Origin: a virus
IMG/VR virus record: IMGVR_UViG_3300037847_003575
Coordinates: 1 to 22,958 of that record
Length of the DNA stretch: 22,958 nt
Direction: 5' to 3' (one strand)
In this document: positions 2,009 to 18,847 of the stretch, piece by piece
Layout of the letters: every line of letters starts with the position of its first letter
How positions within the stretch are numbered: the first letter of the stretch is position 1
Notes under the pieces: model-generated
Seen by the model: only the letters and a program-made list of their open reading frames with translations
Databases searched by the model: none
What the model was told of the DNA's origin: nothing
Made by a program: the position numbers and the translations under genes

Positions 2009-2542
2009 TTAATTTGGAGCAATAAGCATAATAGTTAAAGAACCCTTAACTGTGGTGATAGTACCACCACCGCCTTGTTGTGATCCTCTAATTCTAATAG
2101 AATTTCCTACATTAAAAATTTGACAACCACCATCACTAGAGGTGTTGTGTGTGCCACCATCTCTAGCACCACCCTGTCTATTATAGTTAGACAAGTACAT
2201 TTCTGGTTGTACTGATCCATCAATTACCCATTGGAATCCAGCGTTACAGCGGGCACTACCACCATTAACAGCAACCTGAAAACAACACTGGTAAATTCCT
2301 GCATAATTTGTATCAATATTAATTTGAGTATTGGTAACTGTTAATCCAGGGAAGTCACTATACTCTAATGACATAGCATCAACATAGTTGGTACTATTGA
2401 CGTTAGCAGTACCATTACCTAAATTAATCTTAGCAGAAAGTCCGAAGACTGAACCCGATGGTTTAATATCATCTCCATTATAATTTTCTACTACAGTAGA
2501 TGCTGGAATTTGATCTACATATAATTTTCCTGTTCCTGGCAT
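2009..2542 (-). CDS. C1q-like jelly-roll protein, probable fibre-tip or adhesin subunit (third of three)
   Basis: This 177-residue protein is predicted to be mostly beta strand and glycine/asparagine rich. It shares with the two upstream genes a core of an aromatic strand containing G-x-Y (YAGIYQCCFQVAV, about residues 80-92), a W-x-x-D/N-G segment (FQWVIDGSVQPE), an S-x-Y-N-R motif (LSNYNRQGG), and a final strand pair around VGNSIRIR, spacings typical of C1q/TNF-like domains. Its N-terminal third (MPGTGKLYVDQIPASTVV) differs from its neighbours, and it has several cysteines they lack, so it is the most diverged copy. It begins three bases after the previous gene's stop and has a strong Shine-Dalgarno sequence (AGGAG at 2555-2551). 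Such domains often form trimeric receptor-binding heads in phages; the role here is inferred from fold and position. Confidence 0.8.
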   Translation of the reverse strand: MPGTGKLYVDQIPASTVVENYNGDDIKPSGSVFGLSAKINLGNGTANVNSTNYVDAMSLEYSDFPGLTVTNTQINIDTNYAGIYQCCFQVAVNGGSARCNAGFQWVIDGSVQPEMYLSNYNRQGGARDGGTHNTSSDGGCQIFNVGNSIRIRGSQQGGGGTITTVKGSLTIMLIAPN

Positions 2543-2545
2543 TGT

Positions 2546-3067
2546 TTAAGCTCCTAATCTCCAAACACTAATATAACTATATGATGGGATGATTGTAGTA
2601 GAAGTACCACTATTTCCAAATCTTCTAAATTCCATTCTAATACTGTTGCCACCCCCCAATTGATAAGCAGTTACCATTTCCGTACTTGCTTCATTATGTC
2701 CGCTACCAACTCTGATATATGAAGATAGAGAATTTTCTATCTGTCCAGCTCCGTTAATGCCAAATCTAAATCCAGGAACGTCTCTGGCAGAAGCATTATT
2801 ATACGCTACGTTTGCCTGAACAATATACATGCCAGCTGTCGGAATGTAAATATAATTTCCATCATGAGTAAATCCACCAGTATTAATAACTGCTGTGGTA
2901 TTAAATACTGTTCTGTGTGTAAAACTGCTAGCATCGTTTGGATTTGAGTTGGCAGTCAATCTCGTCATAAAATATGCCGTTGAGCTATAACCTGAGCTAC
3001 CGCCCTCTCCACTTGCTGCTATTTTTGCTACACTATTACCTCTAATAGTTCCTACTGTAATTGCCAT
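2546..3067 (-). CDS. C1q-like jelly-roll protein, probable fibre-tip or adhesin subunit (second of three)
   Basis: The protein has 173 residues and starts MAITVGTIRGNSVAKIA. After a serine/glycine-rich linker comes the C1q-like sequence: FNTTAVINTGGFTHDG (about 54-69), YIPTAGMYIVQANVAY (about 73-89), FRFGINGAGQIENSLSSYIR (about 100-120), an EASTEMVTAYQLGGGNSIRM strand pair, and a final YISVWRLGA strand. The F-N-T...I-N-x-G-G-F, I-P-x-x-G-x-Y and final aromatic strand are hallmarks of C1q/TNF-like folds. The same landmarks occur in the same order in the genes on either side, so the three look like duplicates. Spacing to the previous gene is four bases. No good Shine-Dalgarno site precedes the ATG, which suggests translational coupling. 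Confidence 0.83.
   Translation of the reverse strand: MAITVGTIRGNSVAKIAASGEGGSSGYSSTAYFMTRLTANSNPNDASSFTHRTVFNTTAVINTGGFTHDGNYIYIPTAGMYIVQANVAYNNASARDVPGFRFGINGAGQIENSLSSYIRVGSGHNEASTEMVTAYQLGGGNSIRMEFRRFGNSGTSTTIIPSYSYISVWRLGA
2550..2555 (-). promoter_or_regulatory. Strong Shine-Dalgarno site for the third C1q-like gene
   Basis: The minus strand reads AGGAGC at 2555-2550, seven bases before the ATG at 2542. It is the best ribosome binding site in the window; most other genes here have only weak purine-rich sequences. It lies inside the C-terminal coding end of the preceding gene and confirms this start. Confidence 0.75.
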
Positions 3068-3071
3068 TTTA

Positions 3072-3602
3072 TCAATCTGAGAATTTATACATCATAATGT
3101 GACTGTTATTAATCAATCCATGATTATTAGGATCGTTATAACCAGTATAGTTTCTGAACTGTAATCTGAGTTGGTCACCCTGGTTTAAGTTGTACATCGT
3201 GCTAATACTGGTAGATGCTCTATCATGGTTAGCATAATCTCGGTTGTATGAAGATCTTGCTTCTTCTACTTGAGCAACACCGTTGATTTCCCAACGATGC
3301 CAAATAGTATTACGATAGTTATCTTGAGTAGTAGATGCTTGGGTTTGATCCTTGTGGATAATATTTGAATGAACAAAATATTTTCCATCTTCAGGAATTG
3401 TAATGGTGCCAGATGACACACCAAACCCACCAACATTAATAAGAGTATTGGTATCAAAGATATTTCTTTGTGCCCAACTATTGCCCATATCGCCAATATC
3501 AGTATAAGTAATAGTTCGTATTTTCAAACAAGGCAACGAAGATGTCGCTGCCGTACCTTCAATTGAACCATAAAAAATTTCATCTACTTCAATTACGCTC
3601 AT
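3072..3602 (-). CDS. C1q-like jelly-roll protein, probable fibre-tip or adhesin subunit (first of three)
   Basis: This 176-residue protein begins MSVIEVDEIFYGSIEGTAAT. The C1q-like core includes RNIFDTNTLINVGGFGV (about 46-62), ITIPEDGKYFVHSNI (about 66-80), HRWEINGVAQVEEARSSYNR (about 101-120), a SISTMYNLNQGDQLRLQFRN strand pair and a final SHIMMYKFSD strand. It follows the giant fibre gene by 29 bases and is preceded by a late-promoter-like AATAAATA, so it may head a short unit of three adhesin genes plus the oxygenase. It is closer in layout to the second copy than to the third. A receptor-binding or fibre-capping role is inferred from fold class and from its place behind a fibre gene. Confidence 0.83.
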   Translation of the reverse strand: MSVIEVDEIFYGSIEGTAATSSLPCLKIRTITYTDIGDMGNSWAQRNIFDTNTLINVGGFGVSSGTITIPEDGKYFVHSNIIHKDQTQASTTQDNYRNTIWHRWEINGVAQVEEARSSYNRDYANHDRASTSISTMYNLNQGDQLRLQFRNYTGYNDPNNHGLINNSHIMMYKFSD

Positions 3603-3625: not shown

Positions 3626-3633
3626 TATTTATT
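3626..3633 (-). promoter_or_regulatory. AATAAATA late-promoter-like motif before the C1q-like gene cluster
   Basis: The minus strand reads TAATAAATA at 3634-3626, where the first TAA (3634-3632) is the stop codon of the giant fibre gene. The motif matches the T4 late consensus at seven of eight bases and stands 24 bases upstream of the ATG at 3602. Confidence 0.55.
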
Positions 3634-6600
3634 ATAGAAGTTTCCAGATACCATTAACAATGATTGTTCTGCCACTAGCAACAACAATATCACCTACCGA
3701 GAAAGCGTTTGTTCCTGCTGGAATTGTAACATTCTCGTCAATGGTTGTGGAATGTGTCTTAATAATACCTCTACTATCTAACCACTGCTCATAACCATTA
3801 GCTTGTAATCCAGACTTAGCATTAATAGAACCAGTAACATCAGCACCACCAGTGGTAATAGTTAGAGCACCTTCAAGTCTAGATGTACCTTGGACACGAA
3901 GGCGTCCAGATTCGTTATTGTCAGTGAAGTCTTCGCCAACATCAAGAGTATATGCTGGTGCAGTTTCACCAATACCAACTCTAGAATTTCTATAGATATT
4001 GGTTCCAACTTCATTCCATCTAGAGGTAACAAATAATGCATTATTTTGATATAAATCACCATCAATATTCAGATCTCCATTGACATTTAAAATGTAGTCT
4101 CTAGAGACATTAGGTGTAACAGTTGTGTCTGTGCCACTGAAAGAGTTAGTATTAATACCAACTCTGTTGTTAGTGCCTTGAATTGCTAATGCTGGTTCGC
4201 CAGATGCAAGACTCTTCCAATCATCATCACCATTAGTTTGAGATGAATAAATTTCAAATACATCAGCACCACCACCAATGTTAGATCCTAAACGGAATCC
4301 TCTACCACCACCGTTTCCAGTTCCACCACCTCTGAGTTGAAGATCTGCCTCAGCATTAGAAACTCCATCTCCAACTCTTACACTATCCTTGACAGTAGTA
4401 ATATGAGTATGAATATTAGACCACTTGAGAGCACTAGAACCGAGTTCTTGATCATTAGTTGCACCAGGAGTAATGTCTCCTTCATTGCTAATTTTTAATC
4501 TCTCAGCAGAAGTAGCATTAGCTGTTCTAGTTCTGATAATTAATTCACCAACATTAGCACCTGTTCTGTGTGCTGTAATACCCCACTGAGAAGCAGCAGA
4601 AGAACCATGTTGTAGAATGATACCAGATTCACCACCATTTACTTGGTTGTATACACTTGATTGATAAATTGTCGTCTGTGATGATAGTGCTAGGTTAGAC
4701 TGGAAGTTGAGAGAACCAGAAGCACTGTAAACATTAAACTTGACTGGGTTAGCATCTGCAGTTTGACCAATGTTAACTCTATTATCGGTAGAGTTAACGT
4801 AGAAAGTTCCACTATCAACGGTTAGATCGGCACCAAGAGTTGTGTTTCCACCAATATCCAAACTACCAGTTCCTTGAACACTGATATTGTTATTTCCAGT
4901 GATTGTTAAACCACCAGTCATTGTATCACCAGTTTTCAGAACGTTAAGTGATGCAGCACCTGTTAAAGAGGCAGTAATAGTTCCAGCAGAGAAATTACCA
5001 CTGGTGTCTCTCATTACAGCAGACTTGAGTGCTGCTGAAGAAGCAATATTAGTATCGTTAAAAGCAACATTACCTGCATTCCAAATAATATTGTTGTTGA
5101 CTTTTAGTTCGTTTTCGTTGACAACTTTAAATTCAAGACTACCAGATCCTTCAGATGCATCACCACCATCTGCAATAATAGCAGAGTTGTAACTTGGATC
5201 ATTATTGTTGTCTACTGCTTGTGCTTGTGAGGAGTTAAAGTAAATGTATGGTTGCGTTGCAGCAACGCCATCATTTCTTCCAAGTCTCAGGAAACCAGTT
5301 CCAGAGCTATTACCCATCTCTGCATATTGAACAGTATTATCATCATAAATTTCCCAATGTTCAAATTCTCTTTCATCACCTGCATATCCAAGATAAACAG
5401 CAGCATTAATATTACCACCAGAAGAAAGTCTTCCGATTAACATCGTATAGGTATTGGAAGAATCATTCTGATCAACATCTTGATCAGTTGCAGTAATTAC
5501 AAAGTCACCAACACTAATCTTATTGACATCAAACATGTCAATTGTTTTGTTAGCTTCAAAATCTCCACCAGGAGAAACATCTAGATTTTGTCTTACCAGA
5601 ATTCTATAGAATGTTTCTGCTCCAGCATAAGATTTAACTTCAACCTTATCTCTAAACGCAGTAGAACTTCTCCATGTTGGTAGTCTAGTATCAAAGATTT
5701 CATTGGTCTTAATATTCCAACCGTCTTGATACCATATACCTTCCTTATTATCAAGTCTATCAGCATCTAGACCTGAGTCAATACCCATATTTCCAGAGTT
5801 CCAAACTTCATACCAAGAACCGTAAGAAGTTACAGCATCACCAGAACCACGGAAGTAAATTCTATCATCATTAGCAAATGCAAGTTGTCTTACACCACCA
5901 AATGTAGCATCACCACCAGACTCACCATTACGGAGAGTCATGACTAAATGCTTGGCAGAGTTAGACGATCCAGTATCTACGCTTGGGAAAGCTGATAGTA
6001 GACCATTAGAACTATTAAACAGAGTCTGCAGTGTTACACCTTGTACCGCATCACTTGGACTTGGATTAGCATTAGCGTTACTAGTACCAGTGTCTAGACG
6101 AAGTGTATTGGTAGATCTACCACTAATATCAATACTATATGTTCCACTAGCAAGTTTGTCTGGATTGATACTGCTATCAACGAAGAAAGCACCATTGAGG
6201 TAGTAGCTACCTTGCTGACCATCTAGTAAATCAGCGTCAAGACCACTATCAGGACCCATCTTAATAGATATAGATCCATTTCCTTCATCGCCAATATTAA
6301 ATTGGGACTTCTTAAATCTAGCAACACCAATGGTTCCAAAGAGATCCTGAGAAATTGTTAGATCAGAAACTCTCTGAACATCAAGTGCGATATTGGCAAA
6401 CTGTTTCTGAGTAGTTGCTACTTTTGCAAGTAAAACTAAGTTAGAACCAGCTCCAATAATAGTTGGGTTAGGAGCAACTTGGAAATCTGCAGTGTATCCA
6501 GAACCAGAATTTGTAACGGTACATGTGGTGACTTGACCAGATTGACCATTTTCACCAACAATAATATTAACTCTTAGATCATTGCCACTTGTTCCTGCTG

Positions 6601-9600
6601 GTGCATCCAGAGGAATATCAAAATACTGACCATCGGTATATCCAGTTCCAGGATTTGCAATAACAACAGAGTCAATAAATTCACCACCAGTATTTGTAGA
6701 ATCAAAGATTAGTGGCGAAGCACCACGATTGAATTCAATGACTGTTCCAACAGCAATAGTTGATGTAATTGGATTGTTGAAAGAAACTGTTGTTAAATTG
6801 CCAACAACAGTTACACCGTTTACAGTAGTATCATTAGCAATACCACCAACATTAGCTACAATTTCATGTCCTTTAAGAACGTCAGATAATCCTTCAAAAA
6901 TAAAGGAACTTGCACCTGTAGATGCTTGTGCATATAGTCTTGCAAAGTATCTTGTTTCAGCACCTTTCAAAGACTGAACTGCTTTTGCATATCTTTGGTC
7001 TCCTCTCAAGAAGGTGAAAGAGTTTGCTGCTTCTGAACCTAGTAGTGTTGTAGAAATAACACCAGGACCAGTAAGAGATCCAACACCAACAGAATCACTA
7101 CTTAGTGATACCCAGTTACTTGCAGTAGACGCTGAGGTATTGACAACTCTAGTAATATTAACAGTATTTGCAGATGGGGAATCACTATCATCAAATGTAT
7201 CAGTGTCAAGCATTTTGATATTGTTGACAATGTTGCCATACAATCTATTTTCAATAAATGCGTCTGCAGTAGCTGCTGATCCTGCTCCTGCAGGAGCACT
7301 GATATTAACTGATGGTTGTGTAGTATATCCATAACCACCAACATATCCAGAGTTCTCTGTAATTGTAATAGTAACAACCTCACCATTAGCAATTGTAGCA
7401 ACAGCTGTTGCTGCTACAGCACCAGATGATGGATTGCCTCCAGTAATTTGAATCGTTGGAGCAACTGTATATCCAGAACCACCATCGGTAATATTGATAG
7501 TGTGAACTACACCCTCTCTGTATTCGGTTGCCTGAATTCTACCTGTAGATGGTGTTCCTGTATATACATCACCAACATTAAATACAAGACTAGAATCAAC
7601 AGCAAATCCTAGATATAGACTTGTTAAGTCATTGTTCAGAATGAATGATGTAGAAGTATCCTGTTGGATAGCGATATCACCAGCAAGTGCCCCCTCTAAT
7701 GCTAGTCTTTCTGCTTGATCGGCAACAGTAAAGACGCTGAATGGTCTTAGTGCTGGAATCTGATCAAGAGAGATCTTACCAGAGTCAGTAAGTTCAACTA
7801 GTGCTCTAGGAACTGCGTTCGTAGAGTATGGTTTGTTGATGTAAGGTCCAAGAGAGTTTGTGATATAATCTTTAACTGCCTTTTGAGTAGGTAGTTTGGA
7901 GTCACTGGAGTTAGCACCACCAAGTGTATTACTGTTGTCAAATCCAGTAACAACAACATCGCCACCTTTCAGTTTCAAGAATTCAACTTCAGAGATGGTA
8001 ACCGTACCCGTAAAGGTGATGTTACCAGTTCTGTTTTCAATTCTTGCGAATGTACCAACTTTGAAGTCACCTAGTTCGTCAGTACCAGAGACATATACAC
8101 GACCATAGTTTTCAGAAACTTGCTCGTTTGCCTCAACTTTAGTACCACCGTTTTCAGGTAGTGCAAGGTAGTTAGTACCAGAACCTGCAAATTCCCAAGT
8201 GTGGGAAGAAGAGTTAACAATAGAAGGTCTGTGTAGTTTTAAGGTTGCGTTTGCTGCGTTAGAAGGAGTAAGAGCATTTTGTAGTGCAGTTAGACCAGAA
8301 ATAGTAGCTCCATCAGATTCTCTAATTAGAGTAAGACCATTTCCTACACCATCATCAATAGTAATTGTTGCCGAGAAAGGAGGTCCAACAGTGACTGCAC
8401 TTACAGCATCAATAAAGAATTCTTTATCTGGATCTGCATTTCTGTAACCATCAAACTTACAGATGTAGTGCTCAAGTGGTTCTCTGCCGATATTACCAAT
8501 AGTAAGAGTAGTTCTACCAGTTGGAGTTTGTGAAACAACATTAACAGTTGCTACGTCAAACTCGTAACACTCTCTTCTGTATCCAGTTCCCCTTAAAGCA
8601 AACGTACCGAAGTTAGTAGCAGAGTTGGTAATAGATGCATAACCACCAGACTCACAAAGGACACCATCTTGACAGAAGATAACAAAGACAGAAACTAACT
8701 GTGTATAACCATCTTCAATAACTTTGTATCCAGTACCACCAAACGACACAATCGTGAACGCTGCAGCAACCATTGATTTACCCTGATTAGGGAAGGATGC
8801 TGATCCATCTGGTTCTAGACCAGGGAAAGGACAGTTAGGTTGTTTAACTTTTGTACCATCAATTAGAGCACCGTTACCACCTCTGAACGAGATAACAGAA
8901 GCATTCTGTGTGTATGGCGAAGCTTCAATAATTGGGAAGTCATCATATCTACCACGAACCGCCATGCGGTTGTTATTGAAATCATTAATATAACTATCTG
9001 GATATGTGATAATATCATTGGTGTCATATAATGTTCCAAACGTTTGCGTTGTAGACCCAGCAACAGTTGTACCATCTAAAATGTCTTCAAACAACTCTAA
9101 TGCTGTATTAATAGTAGATTCTACACCTGCACAAATTGATCCAGAAGTAGAAGAATAAGCACTTACAGAATCAGCATTTGTTCTTACAAAGGTGTGTGCA
9201 GATTGTGGAGAATGAGATACCGCATTGGTAGAAGCACTTACAAATGTGTGTGCAGATTGTGGTTCATGCTTAACAGCATTTGGTTGAGCACTTACAAATG
9301 TATGAACAGAACCAGAAGCAGATCCAGCACCACCTACATTAACTGTAAACGTACCAGTTTGGCGCTCAAGACCATTAGCAGATGCACTTACAAATGTATG
9401 AGCACCTTGATAAGAAGATCCACCAACGTTAATGTCAAACGTATTTGTAGTGACATTAGAGATTTCTAACCAGCGACCACTTGGATAATCGTAACCAGCA
9501 CGAGGATATGTCTTCTGTACTGTATTGCCATCTAAATCACATGTATATGTTAGAGATCCATCAGCAACCTTGACATAATCTCCATTTGCAAATCCATGAC

Positions 9601-12600
9601 CAGCAATAGTCAGTGTTACAATACCAGTCGTTGCATCATATGGAGCATCGGTAACAGTATGAGATGTAGTGCCAACAGCGGTAATTGCTAGAGAAGCACC
9701 AGATGCAGGGTCAGTAGAACGTGGATATGTTTCATTTGAAACATTACCATCAATATCGCAAGTAAATGTAAGTGAATTATCTGCAATTACAACACCACGT
9801 CCAACACCAAGACCATGTTGCCCAACAGTGAGAACTAGATCTCCTGTGGAAGGATTGTAGTCAGCTCCAGTTGGTTGGAAATACTTATTAGGACCAGAAA
9901 TACCAGCATTGACTGTGATTGAGGTTGCTGTCTTTCCTGTGATAGGCATAGACCTACCAGCAAATGGATCAATACCAGGGCGAGGATAAGTCTTAGTAGA
10001 CTGGTTTCCATCCATCGCACAAGTGAAACTCAAGGAGTTGTCAGCAATAACAACACCCTCACCAACATCTAAAGTATGACTGCCGATTTCTAATACTAAT
10101 GCTCCAGTAGAAGGATTGTATGTTGCAGCACTTGGTGTAAACTGTACGTTAGGACCAGAAGCACCAACGTTAACAGTAACCGTATTCGCAGTTGTTGCGG
10201 TAATTACAAGGTTGTTACCATATGCAGGTTGACCATCCTCTGGTAAAGCATGTTCAGTTTTATTGCCATCCATTGTGCATGTAAACACAAAGGATTCTGG
10301 TTGTAAACGAATAGTATTGGATGTTGTTAATCCATGACTATTCATGGTCAATACAAAGTCACCAGTCGCAGTATCGTAAGTAGCATCAGATGGAGTAAAG
10401 ATACCAATAGGGGGAGATGCATTGACATCAGTTAAAATACTCCAGTCTTCAAACTTGGGAATTGGAGAAGTTAGTGTAATTGGACCGTAGATGACCTTAG
10501 TTCCATTAGCAATAGCACTTACAAACGTATGTGCATCAGTATTGCTTCCTGCTGCACCAACATTCAAACTAATAGTGGTACTACCACCACTGGATACAAC
10601 GTTTGTAATTAAGAAACTTTGTCCAAAGTTAGTATCAGTTCTATATGGACTTGCATCATTTCCACCACCAGCATGGGCGCAACTGTATGTAATTGCTCCT
10701 TCAGCAAAAGCAATTCTATCCGAGTTAGCTACAGGTGCTACTGCTGGATCTGGAATGGTTACCGTCATTGCTCCTGTAGTAGGAACATATGTAGATCCAG
10801 TTGGAGTAGTTTGTAATACGTTTCCATCAGACCAGTTACGCATTGCGTAAATGGCATATAGTTTTACTCTATCAAATGCATAAATTGTTTGTGGTCTTTG
10901 TGCTTCTGAAATGCCAGAAAGAGATGTTCCACTGAAGTATGACTCTGCTGTAGAAACAATACCATGGTTTCCACCAAGAACTAAGTCTCTTACTAGACCT
11001 TCTAATACAATCTTAATATCTCTACGACACTTTCTTTGATGTAGATCACTAAGATTTAAGGTTGGATAAGCAATTTCAGTATCAATAAGTGCTTGATCAG
11101 CAATTAGATCAGCATTTCTAGCAATCAAATAAGCAGCATCAAGATATGTCCCATTTTGATTGTTAGTAATGATATCTACCCAAAGGAATGATAGAGTATC
11201 AATAGCAGACCTTACATCATCACAAGCAGGTGTACCTGCAGTGGTATTGATGATGGTAGGATCAGTATACCTTGGAGTAGTAGCGTGCTTTGTTACATAT
11301 AAAGGATCAGAAATAGTTCTGTTCTTAATCCTCCAATTACACATTGCATAAATTGCTAGTTCTCTAGCATATTCAATAGCGCGTACATTTTGGATAATTT
11401 CATCTTCAATGAAAGCAATCTTACCACCGACAATATATTTTTTAGCAGCTTCAATAACATTGTGGTTAGATCCAAATTCAAGGTCTCTTACTAGAGCATT
11501 CAAGAAGTGGATAATATCTTGCTTGCACTGTGTATCACCATCTGTGCCAGTGTTGTTTCCAGAAGTTGGAGAACTATATGCTGGATAAATTTTCTGACCA
11601 GCACTACAGGAAATAAGAATGTCTGCTAATTGAACAGTATCATCTTCAGACAATGCAGCAACGGCAGCTGCGGTGGTTGTAATTGTAGCGACACCTGTTA
11701 CTGAAGTGTCGTAAACAAAACCACTAATAGCATAAGAAGTTCCACCAAACGTTACTGTACCACCACTAACATAAGTATTTTCGTGGTCTAGAGGACCCAA
11801 GTAAATATCAAATGTGTTGTTAACAGTATCAATGTTGTATACTGAATAGTAATCAGACTTAAATTGATCGTTGATAATACCAATTACTTCTTCAGCAATG
11901 TAATCTCTATTATTTCTAATTAACTGACAAGCATCTTGATATCTTCTCTCTACAGGAGTCGCAAGTGGGAACTTGTTTGGTGAGTTAAGTAGAGATAGAG
12001 TAACGGACTTTGAGTAAGACTTTACGACAGCAAATTCACTTGGTTGGAAATTTGCTGTTGATAGAGAAGGAACTTTCTTAGGAATAACAAAACGTCTTGC
12101 TCTTCCATCAGCATCTTCTAGAACTTTGTAAATTCTTTGTTTTCCGTTTAAGAAAGATAGATCAGGATTTGAAGTAGGAAGATTTTCAAGAATAATTTCT
12201 TGACCTTCTTTAAATTCGTGAGTATTAGTTCTACCTACAAGAGCACTGGTATATACAACAATACCACCAAGATCTTCTGCATTACCAAACTGTTGATCTT
12301 GGAAACCACCTGTTGCGATACTAGGGTCTCCCTGCAAGGAGAAGTCCAATCTAGTAATTGGTAGAGTGGATGTAATGTCTTCGTCATACGAAACAACTTC
12401 ACCTTCAGCTCTAATTGACTTTAAATTAACCGTGTCAATTGTATTAGTTGTTGGGGAAGCAGAGTTAATTGTAATAGTCTCTGTTACGGTTGAGTTCCAA
12501 CCTTGTGCTCCTAAGATAGGATTAAAGGTAACATCCCAGTAAGTTGGAGCATTACCATTGTTGATAACGGAAACTTGATAGTATCCTTGCGTAAATGACG

Positions 12601-14263
12601 AATTATCTGTATCGTCCAAGAAAACAACATTATTTACAGGAAGATCTGTAGTTGGATCTGTTGTAAATCTTAGAGTATTTTCCCCAGCAGTCCCAGTAAT
12701 GGTTTGTGTTAATGCACCACCTGTAGCAGCAGAAGAAATATAACTGTATTGGTCACCTTCAATAAAGGAACCAGAAGTCAACTGTACATCAATAGTACCA
12801 GCAACATATGCATTGGCACCAGTAGTTGAACTAAAGTTTACATCAAATACATTTGCTCTAGCACCAGTGTTCAATCCTAAAATTTGAACACCCGATGTGA
12901 GAAGTGCTAATCCTGTATTGTTCTGGAAACTAATTCTAAATCTGTCTGGTCCAAAAATTTGATGACCAATTGGAAACTCAACACCAAAGTCTCCATTTAC
13001 TTCGTTGTCAATAATAATTCTTTGCTTGTCATCAAAGACCATAGCAAAGTCCCAGGTTCCAACTGGATCTCCGTTGGAGTCAACCTTATCTCTATAGGTA
13101 ACTCCAGTAACGTAGTTTTTATCACCAAACTTAAAGATGTGTTTGCCAACGTTTCCTGGTCTGATAATTACCAAACGGAGGTTATCACCAACAACCGAGC
13201 AATCTGGTGGTAGTGAAATTGGGTTATCTTCTACATAATCACCACCAGAAATAATCAGTGTTTCTTTGACACCAGGAGTAGACCATGCGATCTGTGCCGC
13301 TTTCTTAATGGTACGGACTGGGTTAACTGCCGAACGACCATCGTTCAGGTCAGAACCAATTTGTTGTGAAACATAAACACGACCACCAACGTCGTTCGTT
13401 GCTAGGTTAAGGACGTATTCTGTGGTAGCAATCTTATCAGATCTATCACCTAAGATTGGAGTAATAGAACGTGGGAAGGTTCCTGCTTCTCCCGTATTTA
13501 AATAATTAAAATCTGTGGCGTTATTTACTCTGAAACCAATATGCTTAAATTGAACCTCGCCATTAGTTTCAACTCCATCCTTATGCTCTGGTGCCAAAAC
13601 TCCAGTGGTTCCTGTATTTAATGCTTGGTATACATTAGAAACAGAATATCTATACTGTCCTTTCTGAACAATAACATTGGCAGCCCATGGCGTGCCAGTG
13701 CCGTTCATGAACGTTTTTAAGTTTGGTGCTCTCAGATTCAAATCTGGAGTAACAAAGTTTTCAACATCAATGTTCAGAATTCTTGCAGTATCTGAAATGA
13801 TAGATGTTGAAGTTCTAATAGCACCATTAATATCTAATTCAAATTCAACAGTATCAAGAAAAGCAGTTGCAGAAGCACCAGAACCATTTCCTCCTGTGAG
13901 GACTACATTTGGTGCAGAAGTATATCCACTACCAGGATCATTAACAACGATAGATGTGACTCTACCATTGAAGATACTAGCTGATGCTTGCGCTTGAGTT
14001 CCTCCTGCAGGAGGTGGATCAATTTCTACAAGTGGAGCTTGATTATATCCAGATCCTTGGTTGTCAATGTCAATATTATTGACTTTTTGACCACTTCTAT
14101 TGATACCTACACGAGGGAGACCACTAACAGGGTCTTTCTGAAGTCGCATAATTTCAACTTCATTTACCCCAGTACCAACTCTGATAGTTGCTTCATTATC
14201 ACCGATAAGTTTAGGATTGACGCCCCTAATTTTCTCTTTATCGGAATTAATATGAAAACTCAT
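3632..14263 (-). CDS. Giant modular tail-fibre-type structural protein (3543 residues)
   Basis: An uninterrupted frame encodes a protein with many parts known from cyanomyovirus fibres. In order: an N-terminal segment with two GSGY repeats (about 65-130); an ATTEYVLNLA fibre motif; a right-handed beta-helix-like region from about 294 (GSDLNDGR, then TIKKAAQIA, SGGDYVEDNPI, VVGDNLR); two copies of a helical module (about 777-943 and 1040-1110); five roughly 85-residue repeats with SLTFTC-DGN cores (about 1154-1635); HTFVSA repeats (to about 1695); another beta-helix-like part (GGYASITNSATNFGTFALRG); PTQKAVKDYI; more GSGY modules (about 2255-2605); several fibre shaft motifs (SGLDADLLDG; LKTGDTMTGGL near 3107); and a short C-terminal cap (VTIPAGTNAFSVG). 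No catalytic residues or intramolecular chaperone are evident. ATG at 14263 is preceded by GGGAA about nine bases upstream and a CTAAATA at 14305-14299. The fibre role is inferred from these motifs and from gene position; the exact virion location is unknown. Confidence 0.88.
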   Translation of the reverse strand: MSFHINSDKEKIRGVNPKLIGDNEATIRVGTGVNEVEIMRLQKDPVSGLPRVGINRSGQKVNNIDIDNQGSGYNQAPLVEIDPPPAGGTQAQASASIFNGRVTSIVVNDPGSGYTSAPNVVLTGGNGSGASATAFLDTVEFELDINGAIRTSTSIISDTARILNIDVENFVTPDLNLRAPNLKTFMNGTGTPWAANVIVQKGQYRYSVSNVYQALNTGTTGVLAPEHKDGVETNGEVQFKHIGFRVNNATDFNYLNTGEAGTFPRSITPILGDRSDKIATTEYVLNLATNDVGGRVYVSQQIGSDLNDGRSAVNPVRTIKKAAQIAWSTPGVKETLIISGGDYVEDNPISLPPDCSVVGDNLRLVIIRPGNVGKHIFKFGDKNYVTGVTYRDKVDSNGDPVGTWDFAMVFDDKQRIIIDNEVNGDFGVEFPIGHQIFGPDRFRISFQNNTGLALLTSGVQILGLNTGARANVFDVNFSSTTGANAYVAGTIDVQLTSGSFIEGDQYSYISSAATGGALTQTITGTAGENTLRFTTDPTTDLPVNNVVFLDDTDNSSFTQGYYQVSVINNGNAPTYWDVTFNPILGAQGWNSTVTETITINSASPTTNTIDTVNLKSIRAEGEVVSYDEDITSTLPITRLDFSLQGDPSIATGGFQDQQFGNAEDLGGIVVYTSALVGRTNTHEFKEGQEIILENLPTSNPDLSFLNGKQRIYKVLEDADGRARRFVIPKKVPSLSTANFQPSEFAVVKSYSKSVTLSLLNSPNKFPLATPVERRYQDACQLIRNNRDYIAEEVIGIINDQFKSDYYSVYNIDTVNNTFDIYLGPLDHENTYVSGGTVTFGGTSYAISGFVYDTSVTGVATITTTAAAVAALSEDDTVQLADILISCSAGQKIYPAYSSPTSGNNTGTDGDTQCKQDIIHFLNALVRDLEFGSNHNVIEAAKKYIVGGKIAFIEDEIIQNVRAIEYARELAIYAMCNWRIKNRTISDPLYVTKHATTPRYTDPTIINTTAGTPACDDVRSAIDTLSFLWVDIITNNQNGTYLDAAYLIARNADLIADQALIDTEIAYPTLNLSDLHQRKCRRDIKIVLEGLVRDLVLGGNHGIVSTAESYFSGTSLSGISEAQRPQTIYAFDRVKLYAIYAMRNWSDGNVLQTTPTGSTYVPTTGAMTVTIPDPAVAPVANSDRIAFAEGAITYSCAHAGGGNDASPYRTDTNFGQSFLITNVVSSGGSTTISLNVGAAGSNTDAHTFVSAIANGTKVIYGPITLTSPIPKFEDWSILTDVNASPPIGIFTPSDATYDTATGDFVLTMNSHGLTTSNTIRLQPESFVFTCTMDGNKTEHALPEDGQPAYGNNLVITATTANTVTVNVGASGPNVQFTPSAATYNPSTGALVLEIGSHTLDVGEGVVIADNSLSFTCAMDGNQSTKTYPRPGIDPFAGRSMPITGKTATSITVNAGISGPNKYFQPTGADYNPSTGDLVLTVGQHGLGVGRGVVIADNSLTFTCDIDGNVSNETYPRSTDPASGASLAITAVGTTSHTVTDAPYDATTGIVTLTIAGHGFANGDYVKVADGSLTYTCDLDGNTVQKTYPRAGYDYPSGRWLEISNVTTNTFDINVGGSSYQGAHTFVSASANGLERQTGTFTVNVGGAGSASGSVHTFVSAQPNAVKHEPQSAHTFVSASTNAVSHSPQSAHTFVRTNADSVSAYSSTSGSICAGVESTINTALELFEDILDGTTVAGSTTQTFGTLYDTNDIITYPDSYINDFNNNRMAVRGRYDDFPIIEASPYTQNASVISFRGGNGALIDGTKVKQPNCPFPGLEPDGSASFPNQGKSMVAAAFTIVSFGGTGYKVIEDGYTQLVSVFVIFCQDGVLCESGGYASITNSATNFGTFALRGTGYRRECYEFDVATVNVVSQTPTGRTTLTIGNIGREPLEHYICKFDGYRNADPDKEFFIDAVSAVTVGPPFSATITIDDGVGNGLTLIRESDGATISGLTALQNALTPSNAANATLKLHRPSIVNSSSHTWEFAGSGTNYLALPENGGTKVEANEQVSENYGRVYVSGTDELGDFKVGTFARIENRTGNITFTGTVTISEVEFLKLKGGDVVVTGFDNSNTLGGANSSDSKLPTQKAVKDYITNSLGPYINKPYSTNAVPRALVELTDSGKISLDQIPALRPFSVFTVADQAERLALEGALAGDIAIQQDTSTSFILNNDLTSLYLGFAVDSSLVFNVGDVYTGTPSTGRIQATEYREGVVHTINITDGGSGYTVAPTIQITGGNPSSGAVAATAVATIANGEVVTITITENSGYVGGYGYTTQPSVNISAPAGAGSAATADAFIENRLYGNIVNNIKMLDTDTFDDSDSPSANTVNITRVVNTSASTASNWVSLSSDSVGVGSLTGPGVISTTLLGSEAANSFTFLRGDQRYAKAVQSLKGAETRYFARLYAQASTGASSFIFEGLSDVLKGHEIVANVGGIANDTTVNGVTVVGNLTTVSFNNPITSTIAVGTVIEFNRGASPLIFDSTNTGGEFIDSVVIANPGTGYTDGQYFDIPLDAPAGTSGNDLRVNIIVGENGQSGQVTTCTVTNSGSGYTADFQVAPNPTIIGAGSNLVLLAKVATTQKQFANIALDVQRVSDLTISQDLFGTIGVARFKKSQFNIGDEGNGSISIKMGPDSGLDADLLDGQQGSYYLNGAFFVDSSINPDKLASGTYSIDISGRSTNTLRLDTGTSNANANPSPSDAVQGVTLQTLFNSSNGLLSAFPSVDTGSSNSAKHLVMTLRNGESGGDATFGGVRQLAFANDDRIYFRGSGDAVTSYGSWYEVWNSGNMGIDSGLDADRLDNKEGIWYQDGWNIKTNEIFDTRLPTWRSSTAFRDKVEVKSYAGAETFYRILVRQNLDVSPGGDFEANKTIDMFDVNKISVGDFVITATDQDVDQNDSSNTYTMLIGRLSSGGNINAAVYLGYAGDEREFEHWEIYDDNTVQYAEMGNSSGTGFLRLGRNDGVAATQPYIYFNSSQAQAVDNNNDPSYNSAIIADGGDASEGSGSLEFKVVNENELKVNNNIIWNAGNVAFNDTNIASSAALKSAVMRDTSGNFSAGTITASLTGAASLNVLKTGDTMTGGLTITGNNNISVQGTGSLDIGGNTTLGADLTVDSGTFYVNSTDNRVNIGQTADANPVKFNVYSASGSLNFQSNLALSSQTTIYQSSVYNQVNGGESGIILQHGSSAASQWGITAHRTGANVGELIIRTRTANATSAERLKISNEGDITPGATNDQELGSSALKWSNIHTHITTVKDSVRVGDGVSNAEADLQLRGGGTGNGGGRGFRLGSNIGGGADVFEIYSSQTNGDDDWKSLASGEPALAIQGTNNRVGINTNSFSGTDTTVTPNVSRDYILNVNGDLNIDGDLYQNNALFVTSRWNEVGTNIYRNSRVGIGETAPAYTLDVGEDFTDNNESGRLRVQGTSRLEGALTITTGGADVTGSINAKSGLQANGYEQWLDSRGIIKTHSTTIDENVTIPAGTNAFSVGDIVVASGRTIIVNGIWKLL
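9183..9410 (-). repeat. HTFVSA repeats with a 54-base period, in the giant fibre gene
   Basis: On the plus strand, cttacaaatgt-like blocks begin at 9183, 9237 and 9291, exactly 54 bases apart, and again at 9387. The blocks at 9183-9208 and 9237-9262 are identical at 25 of 26 positions. They encode HTFVSA/HTFVRT followed by a short linker, a unit of 18 residues. A further isolated copy lies near 10518 (AHTFVSAIANG). Confidence 0.85.
9360..10805 (-). repeat. Five tandem beta-rich repeats in the giant fibre protein
   Basis: Five related units start near 10803, 10410, 10147, 9885 and 9655. Units two to five each contain a Y-(N/D)-x-(S/A)-T-G motif, a hydrophobic strand ending in SHG or GHG-like sequence, and a S-(L/F)-x-(F/Y)-T-C-x-(M/I/L)-DGN core; the second to fourth then end in a TVNVG/GPN-like segment. 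Spacing is about 260 bases for units two to four. The first unit is the most diverged. The conserved cysteine in each unit is notable for a phage fibre. Confidence 0.85.
10930..11940 (-). repeat. Duplicated helical module in the giant fibre protein
   Basis: Two copies of a helical segment lie within the mostly beta protein. Copy one runs DACQLIRNNRDYIAEE (about 777) to CKQDIIHFLNALVRDLEFGS (about 912). Copy two runs DAAYLIARNADLIADQ (about 1040) to CRRDIKIVLEGLVRDLVLGG (about 1079). Each copy ends in N-H followed by an A-rich helix and Y-(I/F). The order and spacing of the two halves match, with an extra segment between them in the first copy. Confidence 0.8.
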
Positions 14264-14809: not shown

Positions 14810-17800
14810 TTACTTAATTTCCTGAACTAGTACGGTGAAGTTGACAATATCTGATATAGCGTGATCATTTGACAGAGTAAATGTGACTCTTGGTTCGGAA
14901 GAACCAGTGAAATCAAATGCTGCTGTAAATTGATCTAACGATGTATTCAAAGATCCATATTCGTTATGGAAAATATCAGTACCATTATCTATAACATTAT
15001 ACTCAGCCATAGATCTCTTTCCAGAACTAGACTTTGATATTGCAGTTACTTTACAACCTTTTGTTGTGCTGGAGTTATATAAGACAACCGCAGAAGTTTC
15101 AGAACCACCTTTAATCAGAGAGAATGTAAATGTTTTGATCGCATAATCAGCTAGTTCAAATTCTTTGAGATCTCCATCAAAAACCTTGACTCCGTTAAAA
15201 GATCCAGTTCCAAATGTTGTATTGAAATAAATATCACCTTGATTATCTAATCTTAAAACGGGATCTACATTTAAACCAGAAGATAATCCCAGATCCAAAT
15301 ACTGTTTCGTTGTACTGATAAAGGATGAAGATGAATCACTGTTATCAATAGTAGTATCTAAACTATTAAGAGTTAATATTTCTGTATTAATTCCAAGCGT
15401 GTTACCACCACTAGTGGTAATCGTGTCAATATTTGTAAAATCTAAAGCAGTTCCCGATAATTGTAATGTGTTAACATTATTATTATAAAAATATAAAATA
15501 TTTTCATTTGCTGCTGGAGCAGTTTCTGGGATAATATAAGTGTTTCCATCAACGTCTCTAACTCCACCTAGAGATGACCAGTTAGTACCACTATATCCTT
15601 CAAACTGTTGAATATCTGTATTGAAACGAATGGAACCAGCACCAGGTGTTGCGATTGTTTTTTCATTATCAGTACCAGCAGGAATTCTAAAGTGAGTTAC
15701 AGAATCAACAATAGTTTGTTTTCCTGCATTTGGTCTCAATACTAAATCTTTAACTTGTGTAGAAACTACATTATCATCAAGTGTTAGTTCTCCTCCAACA
15801 ACTAAAGGACAATCTTTATCGGGTCCAATTCTAAATTCTTCTACTTCAGAAATTGTTAGTGGAGATACAGCAGATGAAAACCATGTTAACTGAGCATCTC
15901 CATTTGCAGCAGTTCCTGATGTATGTGATGGTTCACCGCCAGTTCCAGCAAGTTGACCTAGATTTACAATTCCTGTTACTTCATACAAATTATTTTTATG
16001 TTTGATGTAATCGCCAACAGAAGTTCCTGCTCCAGCTGTCCATAAAGTATAAGTTGGAAGACCTAATCTAGCAGAAGAAATTTTCTTGACACTTCTAAAG
16101 TCTAAAAACTCGGTTCCTAATTGTAGTGTATTTACATTATCATTATAGAAGTATAGTGTATTGTCATTTGCACCTACCGTTGCTTCCGCAATGATGTAGG
16201 TGTTTCCATCAATGTCTCTTACACCACCAAGAGATGACCAAGAACTAGTTGCTTCACTGTAACCTTCATACTGAGTTGTATCAGTATTAAATCTGATGTA
16301 TCCATCATAATTTGTTGTTGGTTTTTCAAGTTCTGTACCAGATGGAATACCAAGTGCAGATGTTCCATTTACACGAACAACATTTTCTCCAGTAACTGTT
16401 AGGTTAATATTGTTTCCAGCGAATGCTGATAAAGTATCTCCCTGTAACTTAACTCTATTATCAGAATTAAATGAACCAGTAGATTTGATTTCTCCACTAG
16501 TTTCTAAGTTGCCATTTGAATTGGAAATAGTGAGGTTGGATCCAACACTGAAATTTCCAATCACAGACATACCGTTTGTGGCAGTTGCTACAATTGTATT
16601 TGTGGAACTTAAAGTAGCACATGTAATATCTGTTGTGCTAATTGTAGGTGTTGTGATAGAAGTAGTAGCCACAAAAGTTTCTACTGCTCCAGAAACTGCA
16701 GATAATGAATTTCCAGTAATAATACCTGCGTCTACATCAAGACCAACTGCAACTACCGAATCAATTGATACAGCATTTATTAAAAGTCCAGATCCAAATA
16801 CTTTAGGATTATTTGTATCTGTTGGTAACACATCAAAGTTTGGAGATGTGCCACCCATAGCAGAGTGGACCTGGCAATAATAATATAAGTTTGGTGTTGT
16901 ATCACTTATTTTTACACGAAGATTTCCATCTTCTTTTACAACACCCGTACTATATTCATAACCAGTAAACGATAGATCGGCAGTTCCGTTTGTTAATGGA
17001 AGAAGTGATAGTGTAATAGTAGTAGCGTTATCAACGCTCTTTACTACTGTAGCAGCATCTAGCGAACCTGTACCACCAGTAACTGCTACTGGCATTCCTG
17101 CAATAATATTTGTAGTGTCTGTAACAGTAATTGTTGCAGAAGAAGTATCTAATACTACAGAATTTTGTGCATATGATGTATGAACACCGTCTGGAGTTTC
17201 TGACAGTTCAAATGGATGAGTAGAAACAGAGGTATCTGTGAGATTAAATTCGTAGGTATTACCAGAGTAAAGTGTTAGGTTTGGATGATATTTGTCTGCA
17301 ACGGTATTAGCAACATTTCCATCGTCTAGTAGATATTGATTTTGGGTGCTGATAGTTGCAATAGTCTCCGCAGTTGCTATTCCACCTGTTGAAATATCAA
17401 TTAGATCACCATTACTTAAATTTGTATCCTCTTCAACTACAATATAATCAATATTGCCACCAGAAGAATAAACTGCTAGACAAGAAACTTCAACACGAAC
17501 AGAAACATTGTCAACATTTAATACAACACCTGCAATACCACCAACACTACCAGAAGGAACAGAAATTTGTTGTCCTTGAGTGTAGTTATATCCAGTTGCA
17601 ACAACATTACTAATACCTAATTCACCAGTTTCATCAGTTTCAAAATCTATAATCAGTCCAGTTCCAGAACCAGCATTTAATTGTACATTACTATAAGTTT
17701 GTGAAACAGTTCCTGTATAGATTCCATCTAATGATGTGCCAATTGCTGCACCTTCAATACCTTTTAAAGTATCTCCTTTTGAAAATTTTGTATCTGCAAC

Positions 17801-18847
17801 AGTTCCTGTAAAAGTTAGCTTTTGAGTTGGAATAACTGTTACAGCATATGTAATTGGTTGAGTCAGTGAAGTTGGGTCTACACTCAACACATCTCCTGCG
17901 TTATAACCAACACCAGGATTGCTAATGGTAATACTAGAAACTGTTTTAACAGCATTAATCGTATAAGCAAATGCAGGAGAACCTGTGCCAGGAATAGTTA
18001 ATACATCTCCTACTTGATATCCTGTTCCATATTGAGAAATTGTAAAATTCTCAACTGTTCCTGGATTATTTGAAATAGTAAAAGCAAAACCAGATCCACT
18101 TCCACCAAGATCAGCATTACTTGCAGAAAGAACATCACCTAGGTCATATCCATTATCGCCTTCAGCAGTAATAATAACATCAACAACTGCGCCATTGCTA
18201 TCTACTTCAATGTCTGCAGTTGCTCCAGTTCCATTACCTCCTGTTAATGCAACAGCAGTATAACTTGCTTCTACATATCCACTACCAGGATTTGTTATAG
18301 ATCCTAAAATACTGGTTACATCATAATCTGCAATTGCACTAGCACCATTTCCGCCAGATAATGATTGATCTGTATATGAACCACCAGCGTATCCATCTCC
18401 ACTATTTGTAACAGATCCAGTATATTCAACTACAGTAATATCTACGGTAGCATTACTACCAGAACCACCAACAATAGGAACTGCATTATAAGATCCTACA
18501 TCATAGTTTTGTCCACCAGATGTAATAAGAGTGTTAGTAGGTGATAAAGAATTTCTGACAACAGAGAAATCTTTAAAAGATTTTACTCCCTCTAATTCAA
18601 TATTTAATATTTTTTTAGAATTACTAGCGAACCCAAGAACATTAGTTGCTACTCTGTAGATACCTAATTTTACATCATTAACAAAAGCTAGTGATGGAGC
18701 AGCTAGTGTGCCATCTCCCAACTTAAGGTTGCCAGTAGCTAAGTCGCTACCACCTTGAGTAATGTTGAAAATCTGATCACCAATTTGATTAATCTTCTGC
18801 CTTTGAAGTTCAAAGGTATCAGTTCTTGCTACATTAATTGCTGGCAT
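14810..18847 (-). CDS. Modular virion structural protein with GSGY repeats and a cupredoxin-like domain
   Basis: A 1345-residue protein that opens MPAINVARTDTFELQRQKIN, a start typical of cyanomyovirus fibre or structural proteins, followed by NITQGGSDLATGN and LGIYRVATNVLGF. Residues about 110-320 hold many GSGY/GDGY modules with LTGGNGTGATA-type linkers. At about 504-680 lies a cupredoxin-like domain with H544, C658, H661 and M664 (see separate entry). Fibre-like strands follow (LTISNSNGNLETSGEIKSTG), then two copies of a SSLGGVRD-x-DGNTYI module (about 830-925 and 1055-1150), and a C-terminal beta domain ending FTVLVQEIK. The gene overlaps the upstream small gene by 14 bases and ends one base before the next start, so it looks translationally coupled. 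A tail-fibre or distal baseplate role is likely from family resemblance; the exact location is not shown. Confidence 0.85.
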   Translation of the reverse strand: MPAINVARTDTFELQRQKINQIGDQIFNITQGGSDLATGNLKLGDGTLAAPSLAFVNDVKLGIYRVATNVLGFASNSKKILNIELEGVKSFKDFSVVRNSLSPTNTLITSGGQNYDVGSYNAVPIVGGSGSNATVDITVVEYTGSVTNSGDGYAGGSYTDQSLSGGNGASAIADYDVTSILGSITNPGSGYVEASYTAVALTGGNGTGATADIEVDSNGAVVDVIITAEGDNGYDLGDVLSASNADLGGSGSGFAFTISNNPGTVENFTISQYGTGYQVGDVLTIPGTGSPAFAYTINAVKTVSSITISNPGVGYNAGDVLSVDPTSLTQPITYAVTVIPTQKLTFTGTVADTKFSKGDTLKGIEGAAIGTSLDGIYTGTVSQTYSNVQLNAGSGTGLIIDFETDETGELGISNVVATGYNYTQGQQISVPSGSVGGIAGVVLNVDNVSVRVEVSCLAVYSSGGNIDYIVVEEDTNLSNGDLIDISTGGIATAETIATISTQNQYLLDDGNVANTVADKYHPNLTLYSGNTYEFNLTDTSVSTHPFELSETPDGVHTSYAQNSVVLDTSSATITVTDTTNIIAGMPVAVTGGTGSLDAATVVKSVDNATTITLSLLPLTNGTADLSFTGYEYSTGVVKEDGNLRVKISDTTPNLYYYCQVHSAMGGTSPNFDVLPTDTNNPKVFGSGLLINAVSIDSVVAVGLDVDAGIITGNSLSAVSGAVETFVATTSITTPTISTTDITCATLSSTNTIVATATNGMSVIGNFSVGSNLTISNSNGNLETSGEIKSTGSFNSDNRVKLQGDTLSAFAGNNINLTVTGENVVRVNGTSALGIPSGTELEKPTTNYDGYIRFNTDTTQYEGYSEATSSWSSLGGVRDIDGNTYIIAEATVGANDNTLYFYNDNVNTLQLGTEFLDFRSVKKISSARLGLPTYTLWTAGAGTSVGDYIKHKNNLYEVTGIVNLGQLAGTGGEPSHTSGTAANGDAQLTWFSSAVSPLTISEVEEFRIGPDKDCPLVVGGELTLDDNVVSTQVKDLVLRPNAGKQTIVDSVTHFRIPAGTDNEKTIATPGAGSIRFNTDIQQFEGYSGTNWSSLGGVRDVDGNTYIIPETAPAANENILYFYNNNVNTLQLSGTALDFTNIDTITTSGGNTLGINTEILTLNSLDTTIDNSDSSSSFISTTKQYLDLGLSSGLNVDPVLRLDNQGDIYFNTTFGTGSFNGVKVFDGDLKEFELADYAIKTFTFSLIKGGSETSAVVLYNSSTTKGCKVTAISKSSSGKRSMAEYNVIDNGTDIFHNEYGSLNTSLDQFTAAFDFTGSSEPRVTFTLSNDHAISDIVNFTVLVQEIK
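15410..16375 (-). repeat. Duplicated SSLGGVRD module in the 1345-residue protein
   Basis: Two copies of a roughly 95-residue module lie near 16375-16060 and 15695-15410. Each reads (I)P-(S/A)-GT...IRFNTD...(Y/F)-EGYS, then SSLGGVRD-(I/V)-DGNTYII, a short A/E-rich stretch, and LYFY-N-(D/N)-NVNTLQL. The DNA is also alike: gtttccatcaa followed by cgtctct or tgtctct and gagatgacca occurs near 16201 and 15541. The pair is separated by a non-repeated segment of about 120 residues. Confidence 0.85.
16830..17340 (-). other. Cupredoxin-like domain with a 70-residue insertion, within the 1345-residue protein
   Basis: Residues about 504-672 contain YHPNLTLYSGNTYEFNLTD, then STHPFELS with H544, and near the end TPNLYYYCQVHSAMGG with C658, H661 and M664. 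This is the order His...Cys-x-x-His-x-x-Met of the type 1 copper site in cupredoxins, although the spacing between the last His and Met is shorter than in plastocyanin. Residues 562-631 (DNA 16955-17164) interrupt the expected domain with a SATITVTDTTNIIAGMPV module, so the His-to-Cys distance is 114 residues rather than the usual 50-60. Similar YYC-x-x-H-x-x-MG domains occur in other marine phage structural proteins. Copper binding is not shown. Confidence 0.65.

Follow-up and report, generated by a model that had tools for sequence, protein, structure and literature searches.

Metal on the phage particle is already known: HxH motifs in the T4 fibre protein gp37 bind iron, a receptor role has been proposed, and a Trojan-horse idea has been put forward for marine phages (PMC11705849). 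Cyanophages also encode plastocyanin (PetE), a member of the Copper-bind family (PF00127) that carries electrons as a free protein and has a signal-like stretch at its N terminus and a C-x2-H-x4-M loop. Phage assembly is cytoplasmic and free copper is scarce in that compartment, where a type 1 site would be unusual. The titles, abstracts and passages surveyed, all from open-access literature, held no report of a cupredoxin or copper domain on a phage virion. Here we describe such a candidate domain in a structural protein encoded by the window, the whole stretch of DNA that was analysed, which is one entire IMG/VR fragment of 22,958 bases. On balance we favour the view that it represents a cupredoxin-type module with an accessory role at the exterior of marine phage particles, and that its intact form binds one copper ion.

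The split domain and its gene

The domain is encoded within an open reading frame of 1345 aa with an ATG start (14810-18847, minus strand). The product matches PHROG 6005, a virion structural protein, and the adjoining genes likewise match phage structural families. We compared orthologues from 17 cyanophages, most of which sit between a large gp7-like or structural gene and a small structural protein, followed by a structural protein of ~165 aa and a giant fibre-type gene; the window has the same order. The fibre-type protein of the window (3632-14263, 3543 aa) carries repeated AHTFVSA-type modules at approximately residues 1245-1690. After the giant fibre gene come three proteins of ~175 aa in tandem (2009-3602), one matching TNF/C1q (E 1e-4 to 6e-3) and two matching a tail-fibre PHROG, which are probably trimeric fibre tips. 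A 2OG-Fe(II) oxygenase of 187 aa (1442-2005, Pfam E 1e-7) is also encoded within the tail gene cluster.

The cupredoxin domain covers approximately residues 497-671 and is interrupted by a self-contained module at about 562-632. Both halves are recognized by profile comparison and by an HMM of the uninterrupted, or plain, domain: the first half, which holds the first His (residues 497-561; 17165-17359, minus strand), at E 5e-10, and the second (residues 633-671; 16835-16951, minus strand) at E 5e-8. Four putative ligands, all encoded on the minus strand, are found in the translated frame exactly where the sequence-only reading had placed them. H544 (17216-17218) is assigned by its position in the sequence and is kept in every orthologue that has the C-terminal Cys-His, while C658 (16874-16876) and H661 (16865-16867) correspond to the family Cys and His that align with those of plastocyanin. 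The putative axial ligand is M664 (16856-16858), with Glu instead in many loop-expanded orthologues. The predicted order His, Cys, His, Met is the type 1 order, and the loop reads C-x2-H-x2-M, a spacing that we take to be that of amicyanin. The CxxH at C658-H661 is unique among the ten main ORFs of the window, and because the pattern HPFxLS...LYYYCxxHxxMGG marks a conserved family, the ligand motif goes beyond chance.

The inserted beta module (residues 562-632; 16952-17164, minus strand) was delimited by its absence from uninterrupted copies, by a census of orthologues and by profile comparison. It had been read from the sequence as a separate, nested module of a type that recurs in phage structural proteins, and rightly so: uninterrupted domain copies lack it, and one to three further copies occur elsewhere in the same chain in 109/133 orthologues. 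The accompanying suggestion of recent domain shuffling we reject. All 133 orthologues, whose identity is only about 35-45%, have the insert (67-77 aa), and the insertion is therefore old; the module is reusable. Positions 60-127 of its profile match 8eci chain 1 (Decoration protein) weakly in a profile search (E 2). We picture an old insertion of ~70 aa into the loop after the first-His strand; it disrupts neither the sequence nor the predicted secondary structure of the ligand-bearing parts.

Predicted fold of the domain

For folding with and without the insert, natural uninterrupted copies served as the insert-free form. A model of this plain domain of ~105 aa, built from an alignment of 60 uninterrupted sequences, reached a pLDDT of 92 and a pTM of 0.85. 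Its eleven best Foldseek matches in the PDB are all cupredoxins, among them nitrite reductase and rusticyanin (E 0.018-0.066, and thus all above 0.001; probability 0.84-0.98; identity only 13-16%). The window copy itself, modelled by AlphaFold2 with alignment rows from IMG/VR only, gave a mean pLDDT of 92.3 over residues 495-685. H544 lies just before a strand in this model, C658 closes a strand, and H661 and M664 lie in the loop that follows, a predicted placement that is the ligand layout of cupredoxins. The best Foldseek match of the window model was 8eci chain 1 (81 columns aligned, E above 0.001), with the cupredoxin AcoP next; with its insert, the window copy gives only weak cupredoxin matches, as is expected because the domain is split.

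Sequence profiles point the same way. Pfam Copper-bind is matched by 15 of the 60 plain-domain members (best 8.5e-7) and Cupredoxin_1 at best at 1e-7; a Pfam search with the window protein alone returned no match. Window-type and plain sequences nonetheless align with each other at 99.95% and E 7e-38 in hhalign, with both halves aligned around the insert, and on this profile evidence the window copy belongs to the same family as the members that match cupredoxin profiles. A search of PDB sequences with the family profile ranked nitrite reductase and plastocyanins first (E ~0.02), with His, Cys and His aligned, and hhalign aligned the same residues with cyanophage PetE (p 0.015, at a low profile probability). 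PF00127 is also matched, at ~2e-4, by further virion copies from P-SSM2 and ACG-2014e, and both of these genomes have a genuine petE as well. The domain thus almost certainly adopts a cupredoxin fold, and the original proposal of a cupredoxin domain with four ligands in type 1 order is supported by family fold, profiles and ligand layout alike.

Conservation and joint loss of the ligands

We gathered two samples with patterns that contain no ligand, which avoids selecting for the motif. The first, collected by a pattern around EYTTGVT, comprises 65 complete free copies, and His plus CxxHxxM is found in 64 of them; the lone exception has none of these residues. The second, collected by a pattern just downstream of the domain and one in the C-terminal part of the protein, comprises 133 unique orthologues, in which the site is canonical in 55, loop-expanded (C-x(3-12)-H) in 37, reduced to CxxH without Met in 2 and lost in 39. 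H544 is present in all 94 orthologues that have the C-terminal Cys-His, vs 12/39 that lack it. On trees computed from the downstream columns alone, independent pairs linked Cys-His to H544 by ~6.3 to 0 of 8 (p 0.016-0.031), by 5.2 to 0 of 6 in a second comparison (p 0.03-0.06) and by 9.2 to 0 of 12 over all branches (p 0.004). The direction was always the same, with p ranging from 0.004 to 0.125 by row set, tree and restriction to strongly supported branches. Homologues that varied freely at these positions would have spoken against a metal site; instead, the ligands vary in concert. As judged from these alignments, they are conserved or lost as a set, as would be predicted for a type 1 copper site.

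Could the fold be purely structural, with the ligands kept for packing and no metal on the virion? Virion proteins commonly employ Ig-like sandwiches as spacers, and the domain is retained without Cys-His in 39/133 orthologues (~30%). Yet the four residues, although separate, stay together in 64/65 free copies and disappear together in orthologues, and packing would not obviously link His544 to a Cys-His-Met loop ~115 residues away. A metal site predicts such joint loss, which packing can hardly account for, so we regard a purely structural role as unlikely and the shared fate of the ligands as an indication of a working metal site. Ligand-free orthologues do occur in isolated, evidently viable phages, and some lineages can therefore do without metal at this position.

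The loop-expanded variant (L226, L244, L260, L269 and others) mostly reads C-x(4-8)-H-x2-E, with Met often replaced by Glu and H544 always kept, and may be a different metal site. Many chains also carry a second, intact cupredoxin copy upstream, several hundred residues from the altered or lost local site. Such a copy was found in 48/62 orthologues with an altered or lost local site vs 4/44 with a canonical one, and any upstream copy is missing from 38/44 orthologues whose local site is canonical. When corrected for the tree, this trend keeps its direction and is not significant (4.8 vs 0.3 pairs, p ~0.125; 1.9 vs 0.1, p 0.5; 5.5 vs 0.65, p 0.125), and we treat it as a lead only. A rule of exactly one intact site per chain, for which the raw counts look strong, was rejected on the same tree pairs; in addition, several genomes have intact copies in other proteins, and S-PM2 has one detected copy only, with an altered site and none in canonical form.

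Distribution, possible role and known systems

The sequence-only reading had called such a domain odd in a fibre-type protein. A tblastn search with residues 501-690 returned 46 phage records, cyanophages all by name and each below 60% identity, and a degenerate pattern of the Cys-His-Met loop matched at least 120 viral stretches; most of those listed hold the shorter version of ~105 aa without the insert. With a representative sequence, tblastn found the domain in 220/50,697 phage records, 207 of them Synechococcus, Prochlorococcus or Cyanophage entries and the others Pelagibacter, Methylophilales, marine or uncultured. Phages of the myo-, podo- and siphovirus types all have it, chiefly in proteins of the tail and baseplate, with PHROG annotations such as baseplate wedge-tail fibre connector, baseplate wedge subunit and tail fibre; a protein of the podovirus P-SCSP2 carries it too. 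With so many records and so many tail and baseplate carriers, such a domain is nothing unusual in marine phages. In cyanophage PSS2 it stands alone as a 112-aa protein with the ligands missing. Two BFVD beta-sandwich proteins labelled Pithovirus and Marseillevirus (A0A481Z6J5, A0A481YVH3) match the plain-domain model at E 2e-4 to 7e-4. A related-loci search seeded with the orthologue alignment yielded no conserved stretch. A plasmid search for the domain gave no match; among the bacterial and archaeal genomes scanned, marine lineages carry it too, in part in phage-like genes within assembled genomes and in part in lipoproteins with a poly-Gly start. One of these, a SAR86 lipoprotein of 161 aa beside ordinary metabolic genes (L387:3803-4288), consists mainly of the cupredoxin domain with all four ligands.

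That the intact form binds copper is the simplest way to read these sequences, and we consider it likely. The ion would be held via H544, C658, H661 and M664. Because phage assembly is cytoplasmic, we infer that the polypeptide is made copper-free in the host and loaded later, either once the cell has lysed or at the surface of a host. The bound metal could then lock the beta sandwich, help the tail adhere to the host surface, or both, a role that we propose by analogy with the Ig-like accessory domains on phage particles and with the cellular copies that are anchored as lipoproteins. More tentatively, marine phage tails might carry blue-copper-type centres, loaded outside the cell and used in adsorption or particle stability, with lipoproteins of marine bacteria displaying the same domain.

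Sequence cannot separate copper from another metal, and zinc or iron could occupy the site, much as iron does in the gp37 motifs of T4-type tail fibres for which the Trojan-horse idea was raised (PMC11705849); the fold and ligand set are those of copper proteins, however, which makes this rather improbable. A redox or electron-transfer copper centre working during infection would suit the type 1 ligand set, and PetE is also encoded in 4/9 phage genomes tested, but a domain fused within tail proteins is not a secreted mobile carrier, each genome has several copies spread over diverse proteins, and we know of no redox partner, so this reading is very doubtful. If the copper reading is correct, copper would be a second metal on the tails of ocean phages, linking virions to the copper chemistry of seawater. 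It predicts that the copper content of purified cyanophage virions scales with the number of intact copies they carry, with ligand-free orthologues as natural controls.

The window domain thus shares features with several described systems. With plastocyanin, including cyanophage PetE, it has in common the predicted cupredoxin fold and the ordered His, Cys, His and Met, the first three of which superpose in profile alignments. The window protein did not fit the description of a plastocyanin (a free secreted carrier with a signal peptide and C-x2-H-x4-M): it carries the domain as a module of a virion protein, with C-x2-H-x2-M and no signal-like start. The cupredoxin domain of three-domain copper nitrite reductase and rusticyanin are the nearest structural matches of the plain domain, although these are a cellular enzyme and an electron carrier at low identity. 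Accessory Ig-like virion domains are likewise beta-sandwich modules spread across many tail proteins, with a presumed accessory role on the exterior, but the window domain differs from them in its conserved metal-type ligand set. The iron motifs of T4-type fibres likewise place metal in phage tail proteins, whereas the fold, the ligands and the likely metal are different (PMC11705849).
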